Origin: Gammaproteobacteria bacterium
GTDB lineage: Bacteria > Pseudomonadota > Gammaproteobacteria > Pseudomonadales > JADFDG01
Length of the DNA stretch: 64,000 nt
NCBI GenBank assembly: GCA_018262975.1
Contig: JADFDG010000003.1
Coordinates: forward strand, 124,001 to 188,000
Reading direction: 5' to 3'
The translations under genes and the position numbers were made by a program. The notes below the pieces were generated by a model. It was not told the origin of the DNA. It searched no databases and worked only from the letters and a program-made list of their open reading frames with translations. Of this stretch, positions 11,441 through 54,065 are shown one piece after another; within the stretch, counting starts at the first letter, position 1; every line of letters starts with the position of its first letter.

Positions 11441-12714
11441 ACGCCGTCCTCACCGCCGCGATCGTTGTCTTCGCGCTCATCGGTGCCCCGCTGTTCGCGG
11501 TGATCGCCGCCGGCACCATGCTTGGCTTCAACAGCACCGGCGTCGACCTGCAGACGGTGGCCATCGAGCTGTACCGTCTGACCGACACCTCCGTGCTGCT
11601 GGCGCTGCCGCTGTTCACCTTTGCCGGCTACCTGCTGTCGGAGAGCAACACCTCGCACCGCCTGGTGCGCGTAACCCAGGCGTTCATGGGCTGGATGCCC
11701 GGCGGGCTGGCGCTGGTGGCGCTGCTCACCTGTGCGCTGTTCACCGCGTTCACCGGCGCCTCGGGCGTCACCATCGTGGCCATCGGCGCCATGCTGCTGC
11801 CGGCCTTGCGCGAGGCGGGTTACCAGGAGCGCTTCTCGCTCGGGCTGGTGACCACCTCCGGATCGCTGGGCCTGCTGCTGCCGCCGGCACTGCCGCTCAT
11901 CATCTTCGGCGTGGTGGCGCAGCAGATGGGCATCGAGGGCGTCACCCTCGAGGCGCTGTTCGTCGCCGGTATCCTGCCGGCACTGCTGATGGTCCTGGCG
12001 CTGTGGGGCTGGAGCCTGTGGGCCAACCGCGCGCAGCAGATTCCCCTGCAGCGATTCAACTGGCAGGAAGCGAAGGCGGCCTTGTGGGAGGCGAAGTGGG
12101 AGCTGCCGCTGCCGCTGGTCATCCTCGGCGGCATCTACAGCGGCACCTTCGTGATCTCCGAGGCCGCGGCGGTCACTGCCCTCTACGCGCTGATCGTCGA
12201 GGTGTTCGTCTACCGCGAGATCCCGCTGCGCAAGTTGCCGGAAATCATGCGTGACGCCATGGTGATGGTGGGCGGCGTGCTCATCATCATGGGCATGGCC
12301 ATGGCCTTCACCAACTTCCTGGTGGATGCCGAGGTGCCGGCGCAGCTGTTCGACTTCATCCGCGCGCACATCGACAGCAAGATCACCTTCCTGCTGCTGC
12401 TGAACGTGCTGTTGTTGCTGCTCGGCTGCATGCTCGACATCTTCGCGGCGCTGATCATCATGATCCCGCTGCTGCTGCCGGTGGCGCTCGGCTACGGCAT
12501 CGACCCGGTGCACCTCGGGATCATCTTCCTGGCCAACATGCAGATCGGCTACTTCACGCCGCCGGTGGGGATGAACCTGTTCATCGCCTCCATCCGCTTC
12601 CGCAAGCCGATCGCCGAGCTGTGGGCGGCGTCCATGCCGTTCTTCCTGGTGTTGCTGGCGGCGGTACTGGTGATCACCTACGTGCCGTGGCTGAGCCTGG
12701 TGTTCGTCAGGTAG
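11437..12714 (+). CDS. TRAP transporter large permease (DctM type)
   Basis: A 425-residue membrane protein with about 12 hydrophobic segments, the transport subunit of the TRAP system. The GTG start at 11437 overlaps the stop of the small permease by four bases; this and the protein start VNAVLTAAIVVF decide the start. The motifs SGSLGLLLPPALPLIIFG and QIGYFTPPVGMNLF are the paired hairpin regions of DctM. It is the last gene of the four-gene operon. Confidence 0.92.
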   Translation: MNAVLTAAIVVFALIGAPLFAVIAAGTMLGFNSTGVDLQTVAIELYRLTDTSVLLALPLFTFAGYLLSESNTSHRLVRVTQAFMGWMPGGLALVALLTCALFTAFTGASGVTIVAIGAMLLPALREAGYQERFSLGLVTTSGSLGLLLPPALPLIIFGVVAQQMGIEGVTLEALFVAGILPALLMVLALWGWSLWANRAQQIPLQRFNWQEAKAALWEAKWELPLPLVILGGIYSGTFVISEAAAVTALYALIVEVFVYREIPLRKLPEIMRDAMVMVGGVLIIMGMAMAFTNFLVDAEVPAQLFDFIRAHIDSKITFLLLLNVLLLLLGCMLDIFAALIIMIPLLLPVALGYGIDPVHLGIIFLANMQIGYFTPPVGMNLFIASIRFRKPIAELWAASMPFFLVLLAAVLVITYVPWLSLVFVR

Positions 12715-12730
12715 GTGCCGGCCAGGGGCA

Positions 12731-13405
12731 TCACAGCAGGTCGCGGGTGTGCGCCAGCAGGTCGGGTTCCTCGTCGCCCAACTGGCGCAGTGCGGCGCTG
12801 AGTGCGGCGTCCGCCTTCACCGGGCCGATGTATTCGCACAGTCCCACGTACGCCAGGTTCACCAGCCGTTGCAGATCCTGCGGGTCGGCGCTGTCCAGCA
12901 CCAGCCGGGTCTGGTCGTTCATCCAGTTGCGCACGGCGTCGCGGGTTGCTGCCGGCAGCTTGCTGCGGTCCACGCTCTCCAGGATGAACAGGCGCATGCG
13001 CAGGCGCGTGTCGTTGTCCATGTTGCGCAACAACCGCGCCAGCAGGCTGGCGCAGGCTGCCACGCGCGGGTCGCGGCTGACCGCGGCATTGCTGGCGGTC
13101 TTGCCACGTTTCATGCGGTAGACCAGCAGCTGTTCGCGCGGGTCCGGTAGCAATGTGTGCGGTGGCGCGGCCATCGCCTTCACAAGGCTCTGCAGGATGC
13201 GCGAGCGCTTGCCGCGCATCTCCGGGGTCACCAGGATATCGGACAGGAAACGGTGGCCGGAAAAGGTCGCCTCGGCGGCGTGCGCATCCTCCCAGTGCAC
13301 CAGTGATTCCCACAGTTCGTCGCCCGACAGGTGCTCGATCAGGGCGGTGTAAACGGCACGGCGGCGGTTCTCGAGTGATGGCGTCATGCGCAGGACCTGG
13401 CTCAT
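12731..13405 (-). CDS. hypothetical protein co-transcribed with amtB
   Basis: A 224-residue soluble, mostly helical protein without signal peptide or membrane helix. I do not recognise its family. It starts only eight bases after the amtB stop, with GAGGA as ribosome binding site. It therefore occupies the position where a P-II regulator (glnK) gene often lies next to amtB, but shows none of the GlnK features such as the T-loop tyrosine motif. The sequence is rich in Arg, Leu and Asp. Confidence 0.7.
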   Translation of the reverse strand: MSQVLRMTPSLENRRRAVYTALIEHLSGDELWESLVHWEDAHAAEATFSGHRFLSDILVTPEMRGKRSRILQSLVKAMAAPPHTLLPDPREQLLVYRMKRGKTASNAAVSRDPRVAACASLLARLLRNMDNDTRLRMRLFILESVDRSKLPAATRDAVRNWMNDQTRLVLDSADPQDLQRLVNLAYVGLCEYIGPVKADAALSAALRQLGDEEPDLLAHTRDLL

Positions 13406-13413
13406 GGATTTCC

Positions 13414-14748
13414 TCAGCGGTTGATGCGGTTCAGCGTGTCGCTGTCATAGGCGTTCTGGCGGGCGAATTCCGGGTAGCCGATCTCGGCGTGCTCGGTGAT
13501 GTCCAGGCCGCGCTGTTCGTGCAGGGGGTCGGCGCGCAGTCCGAAGAAGGCGGCAATCAGGATGTACATGAGCAGCGCGCTCAGGAATGCCCACAGGAAG
13601 CAGGCGACGATGCCGGTGACCTGCACCATCACCCGGTAGGTGTTGAACGGGTCCTCGGCGAAGAACAACCCGGCGGCCAGCGTGCCCCAGGCGCCGGCAA
13701 AGCCGTGCACGGCCACCGCGCCGACCACGTCGTCGAGGCGGAATGCGTCGAGCAGTTTCATGCCGAGGATGGCGATGAAGCCGCCGATCGCGCCGGTGAG
13801 GATGGCGTAGTCGGGCGTGGTGGTGGCGCAGCCGGCGGTGATGGCCACCAGTCCACCCAGCACGCCGTTGATGATGCCGGTGAGCAGCATCGGCTGGCCA
13901 CTCAGGCGCAGTGCCAGCAGCGCGCCGAGCGCGCCGGCGCAGGCGGCCAGCTGCGTGTTCAGGTTGATCAGGCCGATGTTCACGTTGGCCTGCGCGGTGG
14001 AGCCGCCGTTGAAACCGAACCAGCCGAACCACAGGATGAAGCCGCCCAGCGTCACCAGGTTGAGGTTGTGGCCGGGCAGCGCGTGCGGCTTTTCGTTGCG
14101 CGGGAAGCGGCCGAGGCGCGGACCGACCACCAGGATGCCGGCCAGCGCGCACCAGGCGCCGACGCTGTGCACCACCGTTGAACCGGCGAAATCGATGAAG
14201 CCGAGCTCGGCGAGCCAGCCCTTGCCGCCGTGGAAACCGCCCCACACCCAGCTGCCCGATACCGGGTAGATCACCGCGGTGATGATCGCTGCCCCCAGCA
14301 GGTAGCCGCCGAAGCGCGTGCGCTCGGCCATCGCGCCACTGGCAATGGTGGCTGCGGTGGCGGCGAACATCATCTGGAACAGCAGGAAGCTGTAGCCCCA
14401 GGCTTCCATCTGTACCGGCATGAAATGCGAGGTGCCGAACAGGCCGCCTTCGTTCAGTCCGAACATCAGGCCGTAACCGACGCACCAGAACAGCAGCGAG
14501 CCCACGCAGCAGTCCATCAGGTTCTTCATCAGCACGTTCACCGCGTTCTTCGAGCGCGACATGCCGCTTTCCAGGAAGGCGAAGCCGGCCTGCATCAGGA
14601 AGACCAGCGCGGCGGCGATCATCAGCCAGGTGGTGTCGGCGCTGGCCTGGGTCGCATAGGTGATGCCGGCGGCTTCGTCCGCGACGGCGACGCCGGGAAA
14701 CAACAGGGGCACGGCCATGGAGGCCGCGGCGGAGAGGAGTCGATGCAT
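13414..14748 (-). CDS. amtB: ammonium transporter
   Basis: A 444-residue AmtB-type ammonium channel with a cleavable signal peptide (ending AVADEA) and eleven predicted helices. The twin-His pore residues lie in the segments GSTVVHSVGAWCALAG and VAVHGFAGAWGTL. The motif PHALPGHNLNLVTLGG is the usual cytoplasmic loop signature. The cytoplasmic C-terminal tail keeps the conserved glycine-containing part (GLDITEHAEIGYPEF) that contacts P-II proteins in relatives. A near-perfect sigma-54 promoter lies upstream, so nitrogen control is expected. Confidence 0.95.
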   Translation of the reverse strand: MHRLLSAAASMAVPLLFPGVAVADEAAGITYATQASADTTWLMIAAALVFLMQAGFAFLESGMSRSKNAVNVLMKNLMDCCVGSLLFWCVGYGLMFGLNEGGLFGTSHFMPVQMEAWGYSFLLFQMMFAATAATIASGAMAERTRFGGYLLGAAIITAVIYPVSGSWVWGGFHGGKGWLAELGFIDFAGSTVVHSVGAWCALAGILVVGPRLGRFPRNEKPHALPGHNLNLVTLGGFILWFGWFGFNGGSTAQANVNIGLINLNTQLAACAGALGALLALRLSGQPMLLTGIINGVLGGLVAITAGCATTTPDYAILTGAIGGFIAILGMKLLDAFRLDDVVGAVAVHGFAGAWGTLAAGLFFAEDPFNTYRVMVQVTGIVACFLWAFLSALLMYILIAAFFGLRADPLHEQRGLDITEHAEIGYPEFARQNAYDSDTLNRINR

Positions 14749-14803
14749 GGCAGGCGTTCCGGTGTGTCGATGCGCCTCCCTGCGCCGTGGTCCACCGGAG
14801 GAA

Positions 14804-14821
14804 TAGCAAGTGCCGTGCCAG
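14804..14821 (-). promoter_or_regulatory. sigma-54 (RpoN) promoter of amtB
   Basis: Reading the minus strand, the site is CTGGCACGGCACTTGCTA. It has the -24 element TGGCAC, a five-base spacer and the -12 element TTGC, a full match to the RpoN consensus. The predicted start of transcription is near 14794, about 46 bases ahead of the amtB start codon. RpoN control of ammonium transporters is well established. Confidence 0.85.
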
Positions 14822-14900
14822 CACGTGCGGTGCGGTCTGCAGCCGCGAAACCCGCTCTTGCGTGACGCGCGCTGGTGCGCGGGATGCGGTGCGCGTCGGG

Positions 14901-14925
14901 CCGGCGCACCGGTGCGGTGCGCCGG
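14901..14925. promoter_or_regulatory. NtrC-like enhancer site within a perfect hairpin
   Basis: A perfect 10-base-pair inverted repeat (CCGGCGCACC and GGTGCGCCGG around a GGTGC loop) begins one base after the stop of the Kef-type gene. Positions 14906-14920 contain GCACC-N5-GGTGC, the core of the NtrC binding site, centred about 119 bases upstream of the predicted amtB start point. The element may be an NtrC enhancer, a transcription-stopping hairpin for the antiporter gene, or both. No T tract follows. Confidence 0.6.
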
Positions 14926-16914
14926 TCAGCCGCCCAGCAGGCGATCTTCTGCGGCGGCGATGGCCTGCTCGTTGCCGGCGAGGATGACGATGTCGCCGGC
15001 GGCGAGGATCCAGCCGGACAGCGGCGCCTGCCGGGTGGCGTCATCGCGACGGATGGCGCGCACCTGTGCATCGCCGAGTTCGAGGCTGGCGGCATCGCGA
15101 CCGATGCACGCGGCGCGCGCCGGCAGCACCACCGCGTGCAGCAACTCGCTGGCGGCGCCGTCGCGCTGCAGGCGGTCGTAGGTGCCGTCGAAATAGCCGT
15201 GCAGCAACTGGTAGCGCTGGCGGCGTGCCTGCTCGAGCAACACCTGGACGTCGCGCGGTGCGGCGCCCAGCAGCGCGAAGACGTGCGATACCAGCATCAG
15301 CCCGGCTTCCAGCGTTTCCGGCACCACCTCGGTGGCGCCGGCGGCCTGCAACTCGGCCAGCCCGTGGTCGTCGCGGGTGCGCACCAGGATCGGTACGTCC
15401 GGGCACAACTCGCGGGCCTCGGCGATGATGCGCAGCGCGCTGGGCAGGTGGTCGAAGCTGACGATCAGCAGCGCGGTGCGGTCGATGCCGGCGGCATGCA
15501 GGATGTCGCGGCGCACCGGGTCACCGAAGAACACGTTGTCGCCGGCGGCAGTGGCCTCGCGCACCCGCACGACGTCGGTGTCGAGGGCAATGAACGGCAC
15601 TTGCTGCAGGCGCAGGAAGCGGGCGATGGTCTGCCCGACGCGGCCGTAGCCGAGGATTACCACGTGGCGCTCCAGCCCGGCAGTGGCCGCGCTGATGTGG
15701 CCGGCTTCCACCACGTCCGCGGCCGTGGCCCGGTGGCCGGGCAGGCGAGGCAGCAGCCAGCGGGTGATGGCCTCGCTGTTGTTGAGCAGCAAGGGCGTGA
15801 GCGCCATGCTCACCACCGTCACCGCGATCATGAACGAGGCGACGTCGGCCGGTACCACTTTTTCGCGCGCGGCCAGTGCCATCAGCGCGAAGAAGAATTC
15901 GCCGCCCTGGGCCAGCGCCAGGCCGGTCTTGATCGCCGTCTCGCGCGTCTCGCGCAGGGCGCGCGTCATCACCGCCACCAGCACGCCCTTCACCAGCAGC
16001 AGTCCGATGCCGAGCAGGATGATGCGCGCCCAGTATTCGCGCAGCATCGCCAGGTCGAGCATCATGCCCACGCTGATGAAGAACAGGCCCAGCAGCAGGT
16101 CGCGGAAGGGCCGGATGTCGGCCTCGATCTGGTGGCGGAAGCGGCTTTCTCCCAGCACCATGCCGGCCAGGAAGGCGCCCAGCGCCATGCTGAGTCCCGC
16201 CAGCTGGGTGATCCACGCCGCGAACAGCGCCACCAGCAGCGCGGTGAGCATCAGGAGTTCCTGCGAGCGCGTGCCGGCGGTTTCCTCGAACAGGCGCGGC
16301 AGGATCCAGCGTCCCGCGGCCAGCATGCCGATGAACAGCAGCGTGCCGCGCAGCAGCGGGTCGGCGACGCTGGCGACGAGCCCGGTGCTGCCGGCGCCGG
16401 CCAGTACCGGCAGCAGGATCAGCAGGAATACCGCGGCGATGTCCTGGAACAGCAGGATGCCGATGCTCACCTGCCCGTGGCGGGTGTGCAGCTGGCCGCT
16501 GCTGACCAGTTCGCGGGATACGATGGCGGTGGACGACAACGCGAGGCCACCGGCCACCGCGACGCTGGCGGCGACACCCAGGCCCCACGCCCACAGTGCC
16601 AGGAAGAACACGGCGCCGCACAGCAGCACCTGCATTGAGCCGATGCCGAACACGGTGCCGCGCAAGGCCACCAGGCGTGGCAGCGAGAACTCCAGGCCGA
16701 GCGTGAACAGCAGGAACACCACGCCGAATTCGGCGAGGGTGTGCACGCTGTCCGGCGAATGGACGATGGCGAACCCGCCGGGGCCGGCCGCCATGCCGAT
16801 CGCCATGAAGGCAAGCAGCGACGGCGCGTGCAGGCGGTGCAGCAGGACGATCAGGCCGACCGATGCCCCGAGCAGGAGCAGCAGGTCGGTGAAGTGGCTG
16901 GTATGCGAGGTCAC
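14926..16914 (-). CDS. Kef-type monovalent cation:proton antiporter (CPA2) with RCK domain
   Basis: A 662-residue membrane antiporter. The first 380 residues hold about 12 helices of the CPA2 sodium/proton exchanger fold, including LALSSTAIV and ALSMALGAFLAGMVLGES-like segments. From about residue 415 a TrkA-N/RCK nucleotide-binding domain follows (VVILGYGRVGQTIARFL, with GxGxxG), then a TrkA-C domain at the end. The layout matches KefB/KefC/YbaL, which are glutathione- or nucleotide-gated potassium efflux systems. The GTG start at 16914 is fixed by a four-base overlap (GTGA) with the upstream coiled-coil gene. Confidence 0.88.
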   Translation of the reverse strand: MTSHTSHFTDLLLLLGASVGLIVLLHRLHAPSLLAFMAIGMAAGPGGFAIVHSPDSVHTLAEFGVVFLLFTLGLEFSLPRLVALRGTVFGIGSMQVLLCGAVFFLALWAWGLGVAASVAVAGGLALSSTAIVSRELVSSGQLHTRHGQVSIGILLFQDIAAVFLLILLPVLAGAGSTGLVASVADPLLRGTLLFIGMLAAGRWILPRLFEETAGTRSQELLMLTALLVALFAAWITQLAGLSMALGAFLAGMVLGESRFRHQIEADIRPFRDLLLGLFFISVGMMLDLAMLREYWARIILLGIGLLLVKGVLVAVMTRALRETRETAIKTGLALAQGGEFFFALMALAAREKVVPADVASFMIAVTVVSMALTPLLLNNSEAITRWLLPRLPGHRATAADVVEAGHISAATAGLERHVVILGYGRVGQTIARFLRLQQVPFIALDTDVVRVREATAAGDNVFFGDPVRRDILHAAGIDRTALLIVSFDHLPSALRIIAEARELCPDVPILVRTRDDHGLAELQAAGATEVVPETLEAGLMLVSHVFALLGAAPRDVQVLLEQARRQRYQLLHGYFDGTYDRLQRDGAASELLHAVVLPARAACIGRDAASLELGDAQVRAIRRDDATRQAPLSGWILAAGDIVILAGNEQAIAAAEDRLLGG

Positions 16915-17180
16915 TTGCCCGACTTGAGCTTCTTGATCTCTTCCTGCAACTGCTTCAGGTAGGCGTCCTTCTCGGCGGTGAGCTTCTGGCTGGTCTCCAG
17001 TTGCTTCGTGAGCAGTGCCTCGCGCTCCTTCAGCTCCTTCTGCTCGCGCGCAAGACGATCCTTCTCCTCGGCGATGAGCGCCTTGCGGTCCGCATTGGCC
17101 TTGCCTTTCGCATCGGCGGCGTGGACGGGGGCGGCGGCGAGGATGGCGGTGCTGAGCAGGGCGATGATGACGTGCTTCAT
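16911..17180 (-). CDS. small secreted coiled-coil protein coupled to Kef-type antiporter
   Basis: An 89-residue protein with a signal peptide of 22 residues ending VHAA. The remaining 67 residues are a highly charged, Glu/Lys-rich coiled coil with heptad-like spacing (KEREALLTKQLETSQKLTAE). No family is recognised. Its stop overlaps the start of the antiporter gene by four bases, so both proteins should be made together. A periplasmic accessory or oligomerisation role is possible but unproven. Confidence 0.65.
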   Translation of the reverse strand: MKHVIIALLSTAILAAAPVHAADAKGKANADRKALIAEEKDRLAREQKELKEREALLTKQLETSQKLTAEKDAYLKQLQEEIKKLKSGK

Positions 17181-17342
17181 GCTGGCGTACCTGGACTGTG
17201 CAGGGGAAAGTGCCCGCCACGCGGCGGCGCGGGAAAGGCCCGGGGTCTGTGGCCCCTTGGCCGCGCGGCGCGCGGCCTGGCCGGGGCCGATGTTACCATG
17301 CCGGCATGACCCCGGAATCCGTGCCGGGACGCGAGGATACAG

Positions 17343-18749: not shown

Positions 18750-19184
18750 ATGGCCACCCTGATGCCGTGCCGTCGCGTCCTGGTGCTGGTGCCGCCGGGC
18801 GTGCACGGTGCGCCGGTATCGTCGGCGGTGGCGCGTGCCGTGGAAGCGGCGTTGCCGGCCGGCGCGGGCGCGGTGTCGGTGGATGCGACCGTGGCGCCGC
18901 TGGTGCACGTGGTGGCCTGCGAGGCGGATATCGATACCGACGTGGTACTGCGCGAGGCGCGGCTGGCGGATGCCGCCAGCTGGTTGCAGGCGGCGGTGGC
19001 CCGCATCGACAGTCGTGGTGTCGATATCACCTGGGAGGCCGTGCCGGCCCCGGATGTGGCCGACTGGGCCATCACCTGCGTGACGTCCGGCCGCTTCGAT
19101 GCGCTGGTACTGGCAGGCGACGATGCCGGCATGGCGTCGTCGCTGCGAGCCGCACTGGCGGTGCCGGTACTGGCCGGCGGTTGA
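18750..19184 (+). CDS. possible universal-stress-protein-like domain protein
   Basis: A 144-residue soluble protein. It begins with a beta strand (RRVLVLVPPG) and later has a helix, the strand DITWEAVP, the segment GRFDALVLAGDDAGM and a final strand with LAVPVLAGG. This order resembles the alpha/beta UspA fold, but the ATP-binding GxxG-S/T motif is not clear. It lies six bases after the metallo-hydrolase gene and is probably co-transcribed with it. The assignment is tentative. Confidence 0.5.
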   Translation: MATLMPCRRVLVLVPPGVHGAPVSSAVARAVEAALPAGAGAVSVDATVAPLVHVVACEADIDTDVVLREARLADAASWLQAAVARIDSRGVDITWEAVPAPDVADWAITCVTSGRFDALVLAGDDAGMASSLRAALAVPVLAGG

Positions 19185-41224: not shown

Positions 41225-41252
41225 AAAAAGCCCCGGCATGCCGGGGCTTTTT
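41225..41252. terminator. bidirectional terminator between gloA and the lipoprotein gene
   Basis: AAAAAGCCCCGGC and GCCGGGGCTTTTT form a long stem around a two-base centre, with T runs on both strands. It serves the two convergent genes. Confidence 0.92.
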
Positions 41253-43100: not shown

Positions 43101-43127
43101 AAAAGCCCCGGGGATACCGGGGCTTTT
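43101..43127. terminator. bidirectional terminator inside a REP pair
   Basis: AAAAGCCCCGG pairs with CCGGGGCTTTT around GGATA, an 11-pair stem with T runs on both strands. It ends the minus-strand pdxH-yidB transcript. Confidence 0.9.
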
Positions 43128-50641: not shown

Positions 50642-50661
50642 CGGTGCCGCGCGCGCACATG

Positions 50662-50690
50662 AAAAAGCCCGGCATTTGCCGGGCTTTTTC
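50662..50690. terminator. bidirectional terminator between the MFS and fadA genes
   Basis: AAAAAGCCCGGC and GCCGGGCTTTTT around a short ATTT centre, with T runs on both strands between convergent genes. Confidence 0.92.

Positions 50691-51917: not shown

Positions 51918-54065
<2,148 letters not shown>

Follow-up and report, generated by a model that had tools for sequence, protein, structure and literature searches.

Introduction

In the excerpts available of PMC4987338 and PMC8743547, glnK-amtB is listed as a target of NtrC, and the latter describes 19 NtrC sites that fall in spacers between the end of one gene and the start of the next. A second known arrangement is that of enterobacterial glnA, whose 3' UTR carries a Rho-independent terminator upstream of glnLp, a promoter repressed by NtrC. 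Deletion of this terminator slightly lowered GlnA, and one of the two readings offered by the authors is that it stabilises the glnA mRNA (PMC9731577, in excerpt), so that a stem of this kind has a precedent as a stabiliser. Among literature titles and the opening lines of abstracts, no description of an element combining an NtrC site with a terminator was found, which is no proof of absence.

Here we analyse an ammonium transporter (amt) locus in a stretch of 64 kb, called the window throughout. Like glnK-amtB of E. coli and Salmonella, as far as the excerpts describe it, the locus presents a −24/−12 promoter of an ammonium transporter operon accompanied by a candidate NtrC site; unlike it, amt stands here without glnK and is followed by a gene that we call orf224, and the spacer of the site is GC-rich and its dyad extended. 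Like enterobacterial glnA-glnL(ntrB), it places the 3' hairpin of one gene beside a promoter of the next gene that would be controlled by NtrC. The glnA terminator has 6 U, and the excerpted text does not state that it overlaps an NtrC site, whereas the window hairpin has no T tract and contains an NtrC core. Judged from its sequence, the region looks like an ordinary NtrC/sigma-54 amt promoter carrying a hairpin of hypothetical dual use.

Organization of the amt locus

The genes of the locus are all read from the minus strand, in the order antiporter, gap, amt and orf224:

14926..16914, minus strand: antiporter gene of the CPA2 type (KefB/KefC-like) with TrkA_N and TrkA_C domains (PF00999, PF02254, PF02080)
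14926-14928, minus strand: stop codon of the antiporter gene
177 bp: gap between the antiporter gene and amt
13414..14748, minus strand: amt, ammonium transporter of 444 amino acids (PF00909, 377.9 bits; TIGR00836, 397.7 bits)
12731..13405, minus strand: orf224, uncharacterised all-helical protein with homologues behind amt, second gene of the presumed amt operon

Profile searches placed the transporter in the Amt family, with PF00909 and TIGR00836 both above cut-off. Against the marine-subtype model TIGR03644 it reached 347.4 bits, compared with 204 and 190 for the two glnK-linked AmtB proteins of the genome; this is below the curated cut-off of 514, and the protein was not assigned to the marine subtype. 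Two of the three amt genes of the genome sit behind P-II genes and the window copy does not: no glnK adjoins it, and both P-II genes are on other contigs. No antiporter was matched beside amt at E 1e-3 in 62 amt loci, most of which span only about 1500 nt upstream, so that the pairing is, as far as seen, local to this genome.

Of 41 amt loci, 34 have an orf224 homologue behind amt; 15 of these homologues overlap amt by 4 nt. The AlphaFold2 model of orf224 is all-helical, with a mean pLDDT of 91.6 and a pTM of 0.59. The protein has no Pfam or NCBIfam match, no Pfam family occurs in more than two of the 28 members of its own family at E 0.1, Foldseek returned no match at E 0.001, and the best PDB sequence match reached only E 0.026. 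We regard orf224 as a conserved, uncharacterised partner of the window type of amt.

A probable sigma-54 promoter upstream of amt

An earlier note on this DNA had claimed a full RpoN match, TGGCAC-N5-TTGC, as the promoter of amt. The match was borne out and defines the following features:

14806..14820 (14805-14821 with flanks), minus strand: sigma-54 (−24/−12) core TGGCACGGCACTTGC, 13/13 with flanks
14749..14794, minus strand: predicted leader of 46 nt, with a start near 14794 deduced from the −12 C at 14806

The core agrees with GG-N10-GC and with TGGCACG-N4-TTGC, the sigma-54 consensus as given in PMC3224663, in the excerpt of which a mapped sigma-54 promoter of Xylella glnA is also reported. 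It scored 13/13 on YTGGCACGN4TTGCW, and no other site of the window reached 12. Transcription would thus start 12 nt downstream of the −12 C, near 14794, leaving a leader of 46 nt before amt and an NtrC-site centre near −119. The earlier note had placed the promoter 46 bases upstream of the leader start; the figure is right but is the length of the leader, not that distance. No sigma-70 promoter was found in 12700-17300, where 0.3 were expected. Strict TGGCAC-N5-TTGC sites numbered 16 in the whole genome, compared with nine for the reversed control, and three of them scored 13/13: that of amt, one further site, and that of a reading frame whose start we take to be that of a nitrite reductase large subunit.

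TGGCACGGCACTTGC was the sole strict sigma-54 match in the window, and an NtrC core described below was likewise the only one; 22 and 35 of 100 shuffled windows, respectively, contained at least one such match. Single motifs are therefore not significant in 64 kb, and the weight rests on their arrangement and on conservation. Of 390 genomes of the order, 56, among them that of the window, had an amt match at E 1e-115. The 57 orthologues examined comprised 29 of these matches (six rows of that search were left out of the set), 20 more loci, four from another search, and L049-L052, the only loci used from a wider Amt search in which the matches listed were mostly distant Amt proteins; none of the other genomes belonged to the window's own family. 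Of the 57, 48 had a sigma-54 site of at least 10/13 no more than 350 nt upstream of the start. On the opposite strand the count was 5 of 57, and at 350-750 nt upstream it was 6 of 36. Among the remaining nine, L162, L177 and L313 have sites of 9/13 and L159 has, by eye, a form ending in TTGT; L133 has no sigma-54 site, and L322-L325 have none of at least 9/13; these four come from f28 genomes, and in three of those genomes a closer copy is also present.

NtrC motifs were also enriched upstream of these promoters. Cores with at most one mismatch occurred 40-160 nt upstream of the −24 motif in 8 of an initial set of 33 orthologues that carry a sigma-54 site, a number reached in none of 200 shuffling rounds (mean 0.26, maximum 3); control windows contained such cores in 0.5% of 198 upstream and 3% of 198 coding cases. 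With up to two mismatches, 18 of the 33 had a core, compared with 2.4 in shuffles, although coding windows also reached 23%. In the same 33 orthologues, the half-sites GCACCA/TGGTGC stood at 30 against 3.5. Of the other 15 orthologues that carry a sigma-54 site, 3 had a core with at most one mismatch. Exact cores were found upstream in only 3 of the 48 (L185, L308 and L311). Most cores with no or one mismatch were 76 to 117 nt from the −24 motif, on its upstream side; the extremes were 54 and 165.

Regulators and other members of the predicted regulon

The genome (3.3 Mb in 29 contigs) encodes one copy of rpoN (TIGR02395, 484.7 bits, above cut-off), as well as three proteins in which the sigma-54 activator domain is complete. 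One of these, L006, is a true NtrC, scoring above the cut-offs of both NtrC models. The second adjoins a kinase of 997 amino acids with a transporter-like N-terminal part, which we take to be CbrA-like and its neighbour CbrB-like; the third adjoins a membrane kinase, presumably PilS-like with a PilR-like partner. The presence of two further full activators leaves room for a sigma-54 promoter driven by another regulator, such as the CbrB-like one. Both the half-site enrichment among the orthologues and the NtrC core at enhancer distance in the window speak against this, and we consider it very improbable.

All 40 NtrC cores of the genome were placed; the reversed pattern occurred seven times. 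Codon composition flagged 30 of them as coding and 10 as not, a rough division that put the site upstream of glnK on contig C22 among the coding ones, and that counts as non-coding three cores lying in long reading frames. Six of the 10 non-coding cores, and none of the 30 coding ones, are followed within 200 nt by a sigma-54 site of at least 11/13; four of the coding cores have one at 10/13. Two of the six are at glnA, where the two cores are accompanied by TGGCACAGTATTTGC, and one each at ntrB, amt, a gene for a circularly permuted ATP-grasp protein and a Gcw_chp gene. The C22 glnK has an exact core together with a 10/13 sigma-54 site; the second glnK-amtB, on contig C11, has no exact core among the 40. 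The glnA and ntrB regions are of the same predicted build as the amt promoter region.

Orthologue conservation, together with rpoN, ntrC and the glnA context, strongly supports a sigma-54 promoter of amt, as the earlier note had proposed, and control of amt by NtrC and sigma-54 appears very probable. Sigma-54 RNA polymerase would transcribe amt and orf224 as one operon from 14806-14820, and phosphorylated NtrC would switch this operon on under nitrogen limitation. By conservation, a glnK-less amt of the order and its uncharacterised partner gene can be assigned to the NtrC/sigma-54 regulon.

The candidate NtrC site between the antiporter gene and amt

The NtrC core of the window lies close to the end of the antiporter gene:

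14906..14920, no strand assigned: NtrC core dyad GCACC-N5-GGTGC (GCACCGGTGCGGTGC), an exact core centred near −119, probable enhancer

The core begins 99 nt upstream of the −24 motif, that is, at enhancer distance. Both its sequence and the spacing of about 119 bases from the predicted start, as put forward earlier, were confirmed. The published consensus is TGCACCAnnnTGGTGCA, with GCAnnA and TnnTGC highly conserved (PMC8743547, in excerpt). The window site keeps the ten core bases, but its inner positions are G and C (minus strand) and its outer pair is C/G; it agrees with the full TGCACCA-N3-TGGTGCA, which has an inner A...T, at only 10 of 14 positions.

A matrix built from 59 ntrB sites of relatives gave the window site 6.6 bits, the second-best value among 63,980 window positions. 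The rest of the antiporter–amt gap scored at least 21 bits lower. The six other regulon sites of the genome all scored higher, from 9.5 to 27.2 bits, and 10 of 16 coding cores reached 6.5 or more on the same matrix. The site is therefore a plausible NtrC site but the weakest of the regulon, and the strength with which NtrC would bind it is doubtful. NtrC control, as claimed earlier, is well supported for the orthologue group; at the window site it is plausible with a weak matrix score.

The match of GCACC to GGTGC might also be coincidental, the dyad being an RNA element of the antiporter 3' end (a stabilising stem or weak terminator) and NtrC binding degenerate half-sites elsewhere in the gap. 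The GC-rich spacer and low matrix score of the core fit this explanation, as do the repeats of CGCACCGCA elsewhere in the gap. It would also agree with the behaviour of the core in the order at large: GCACC-N5-GGTGC followed by T5 within 2-12 nt was found in 97 of 293 genomes, compared with 11 of 293 for the reversed control, and 10 of the 28 such loci listed are plain GGCACC/GGTGCC stems. The core thus recurs in ordinary terminators, and its occurrence within a stem can be a coincidence. Set against this, the distance of 99 nt falls within the range in which most orthologue cores lie, and 14906-14920 has the best NtrC score of the gap by 21 bits. We judge a coincidental match to be rather unlikely, and take 14906-14920 as probably the actual NtrC site of amt, with less assurance than for NtrC control itself. 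NtrC would then most likely bind this dyad some 119 bp upstream and reach the promoter by looping, possibly with the aid of additional GCACC half-sites in the gap, to which the CGCACCGCA repeats near the core may contribute.

The hairpin behind the antiporter gene

The proposed NtrC site sits in the 3' flank of the antiporter gene, where its dyad extends to 10-11 pairs:

14901..14925, minus strand: perfect hairpin with arms 14901-14911 and 14915-14925, containing the NtrC core, without a T tract

The arms are perfectly complementary; counted with a loop of 5 nt the stem has 10 pairs, and with a loop of 3 nt it has 11. A perfect 10-pair hairpin had been reported one base after the stop codon; the hairpin holds, and its distance from the stop codon is zero bases. 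With such a dyad at this position, the antiporter message would end in, or pass through, a stable hairpin.

The earlier note had suggested that one palindrome may both enhance amt transcription through NtrC and end the antiporter transcript; such an element would shield amt from read-through. The place of the hairpin right at the stop codon and its length, which is among the top four for perfect window stems with loops of 3-8 nt, agree with this, and stems of at least 9 pairs within 60 nt of the stop were found for only 4 of the 42 called window genes (0.55% of random 60-mers). The other three of these genes, with two terminators, one of them common to two genes, have A/T tracts. Eight stems of at least 9 pairs lie outside called genes, three with A/T tracts and five without, the amt hairpin included; since the gene caller misses genes, some of these five may be coding. 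Clear A/T-flanked, terminator-like stems of the window, at 41225-41252, 43101-43127 and 50661-50690, illustrate the usual terminator form of this genome.

For an intrinsic terminator, the hairpin has the GC-rich stem-loop (11 pairs); directly after the stem, the tail is CCCGACGCGC rather than a T tract, and the terminator scan does not list it. Its folding z-score was only −1.38, with 20 of 200 shuffles equally stable, and no known RNA family reached its gathering score in 14700-15000. A transcription end at the hairpin is thus unsupported, as a T tract is missing whereas the clear terminators of the window have one, and a terminator function looks unlikely. The hairpin may protect or pause the antiporter transcript, and is probably no terminator by itself. 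A reading of the dyad, GGCGCACC-N5-GGTGCGCC, as a member of a repeat family was rejected: it has one other perfect copy in the genome (C12:19796, flagged coding), and with up to two mismatches it occurs at 21 places, against 11 for the reversed control.

Longer dyads were found at ntrB. At the genome's own ntrB, the NtrC site (L041, C15, about 18750-18780) lies downstream of a DUF4124 gene, within a dyad of 13 pairs that has no T tract. In the related genome G001, the site upstream of ntrB (L237) is the tip of a 15-pair dyad, the last three pairs of which are A-T and run into TTTTTT; in this element, GCACCATTATGGTGC, loop and inner stem form a consensus NtrC site. It appears to have the textbook form of an intrinsic terminator with a consensus NtrC tip. 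Like the window site, it is a core within a stem-loop behind an upstream reading frame; unlike it, it has the T6 run and the consensus A...T spacer. Of two further genomes of this genus, G081 also has a 15-pair dyad at ntrB and G045 only 5 pairs. An exact core was present in 35 of 90 ntrB loci, made up of 12 in one set of 30, which included the genome's own locus, and 23 in a set of 60. Dyads at these 35 reach at least 9 pairs in seven cases and at least 13 in three. None of the 30 coding-flagged cores of the genome has a dyad of more than 8 pairs. The NtrC consensus itself favours 6-7 pairs, so that only the longest dyads are striking.

The G001 terminator with its NtrC tip and the 13-pair dyad at the genome's own ntrB make a shared element possible in principle. 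The missing T tract and modest folding score of the window hairpin argue against it at amt, as do the 5 pairs of G045 and the dyads measured at the NtrC cores of 11 amt orthologues, none of which exceeds 6 pairs. A double role here is in our opinion unlikely; of the original proposal, the NtrC site stays plausible, the transcription end is unsupported, and a true composite was seen, in sequence, only in a relative, at ntrB. More generally, NtrC enhancers in the 3' flank of an upstream gene could grow into long hairpins. A single dyad would then serve in the DNA as an enhancer and in the transcript as a stop or 3'-end signal, insulating the nitrogen-controlled gene, with the window amt, the genome's own ntrB and the G001 ntrB as three stages. 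We offer this as speculation of low probability; if true, sharing the palindrome would tie the nitrogen control of a gene to its protection from transcription arriving from upstream.

Other sites in the window and the genome

The best position of the window on the NtrC matrix was 52142-52162, with 14.6 bits; it falls within a predicted gene and is probably a chance match. Elsewhere in the genome, the circularly permuted ATP-grasp gene is preceded, at L027 (C1:93579), by an NtrC core together with a 12/13 sigma-54 site. At L202 (C27:27066), upstream of the Gcw_chp gene, an NtrC core lies 2 nt past a TAA stop codon and is followed 125 nt on by a 12/13 sigma-54 site.
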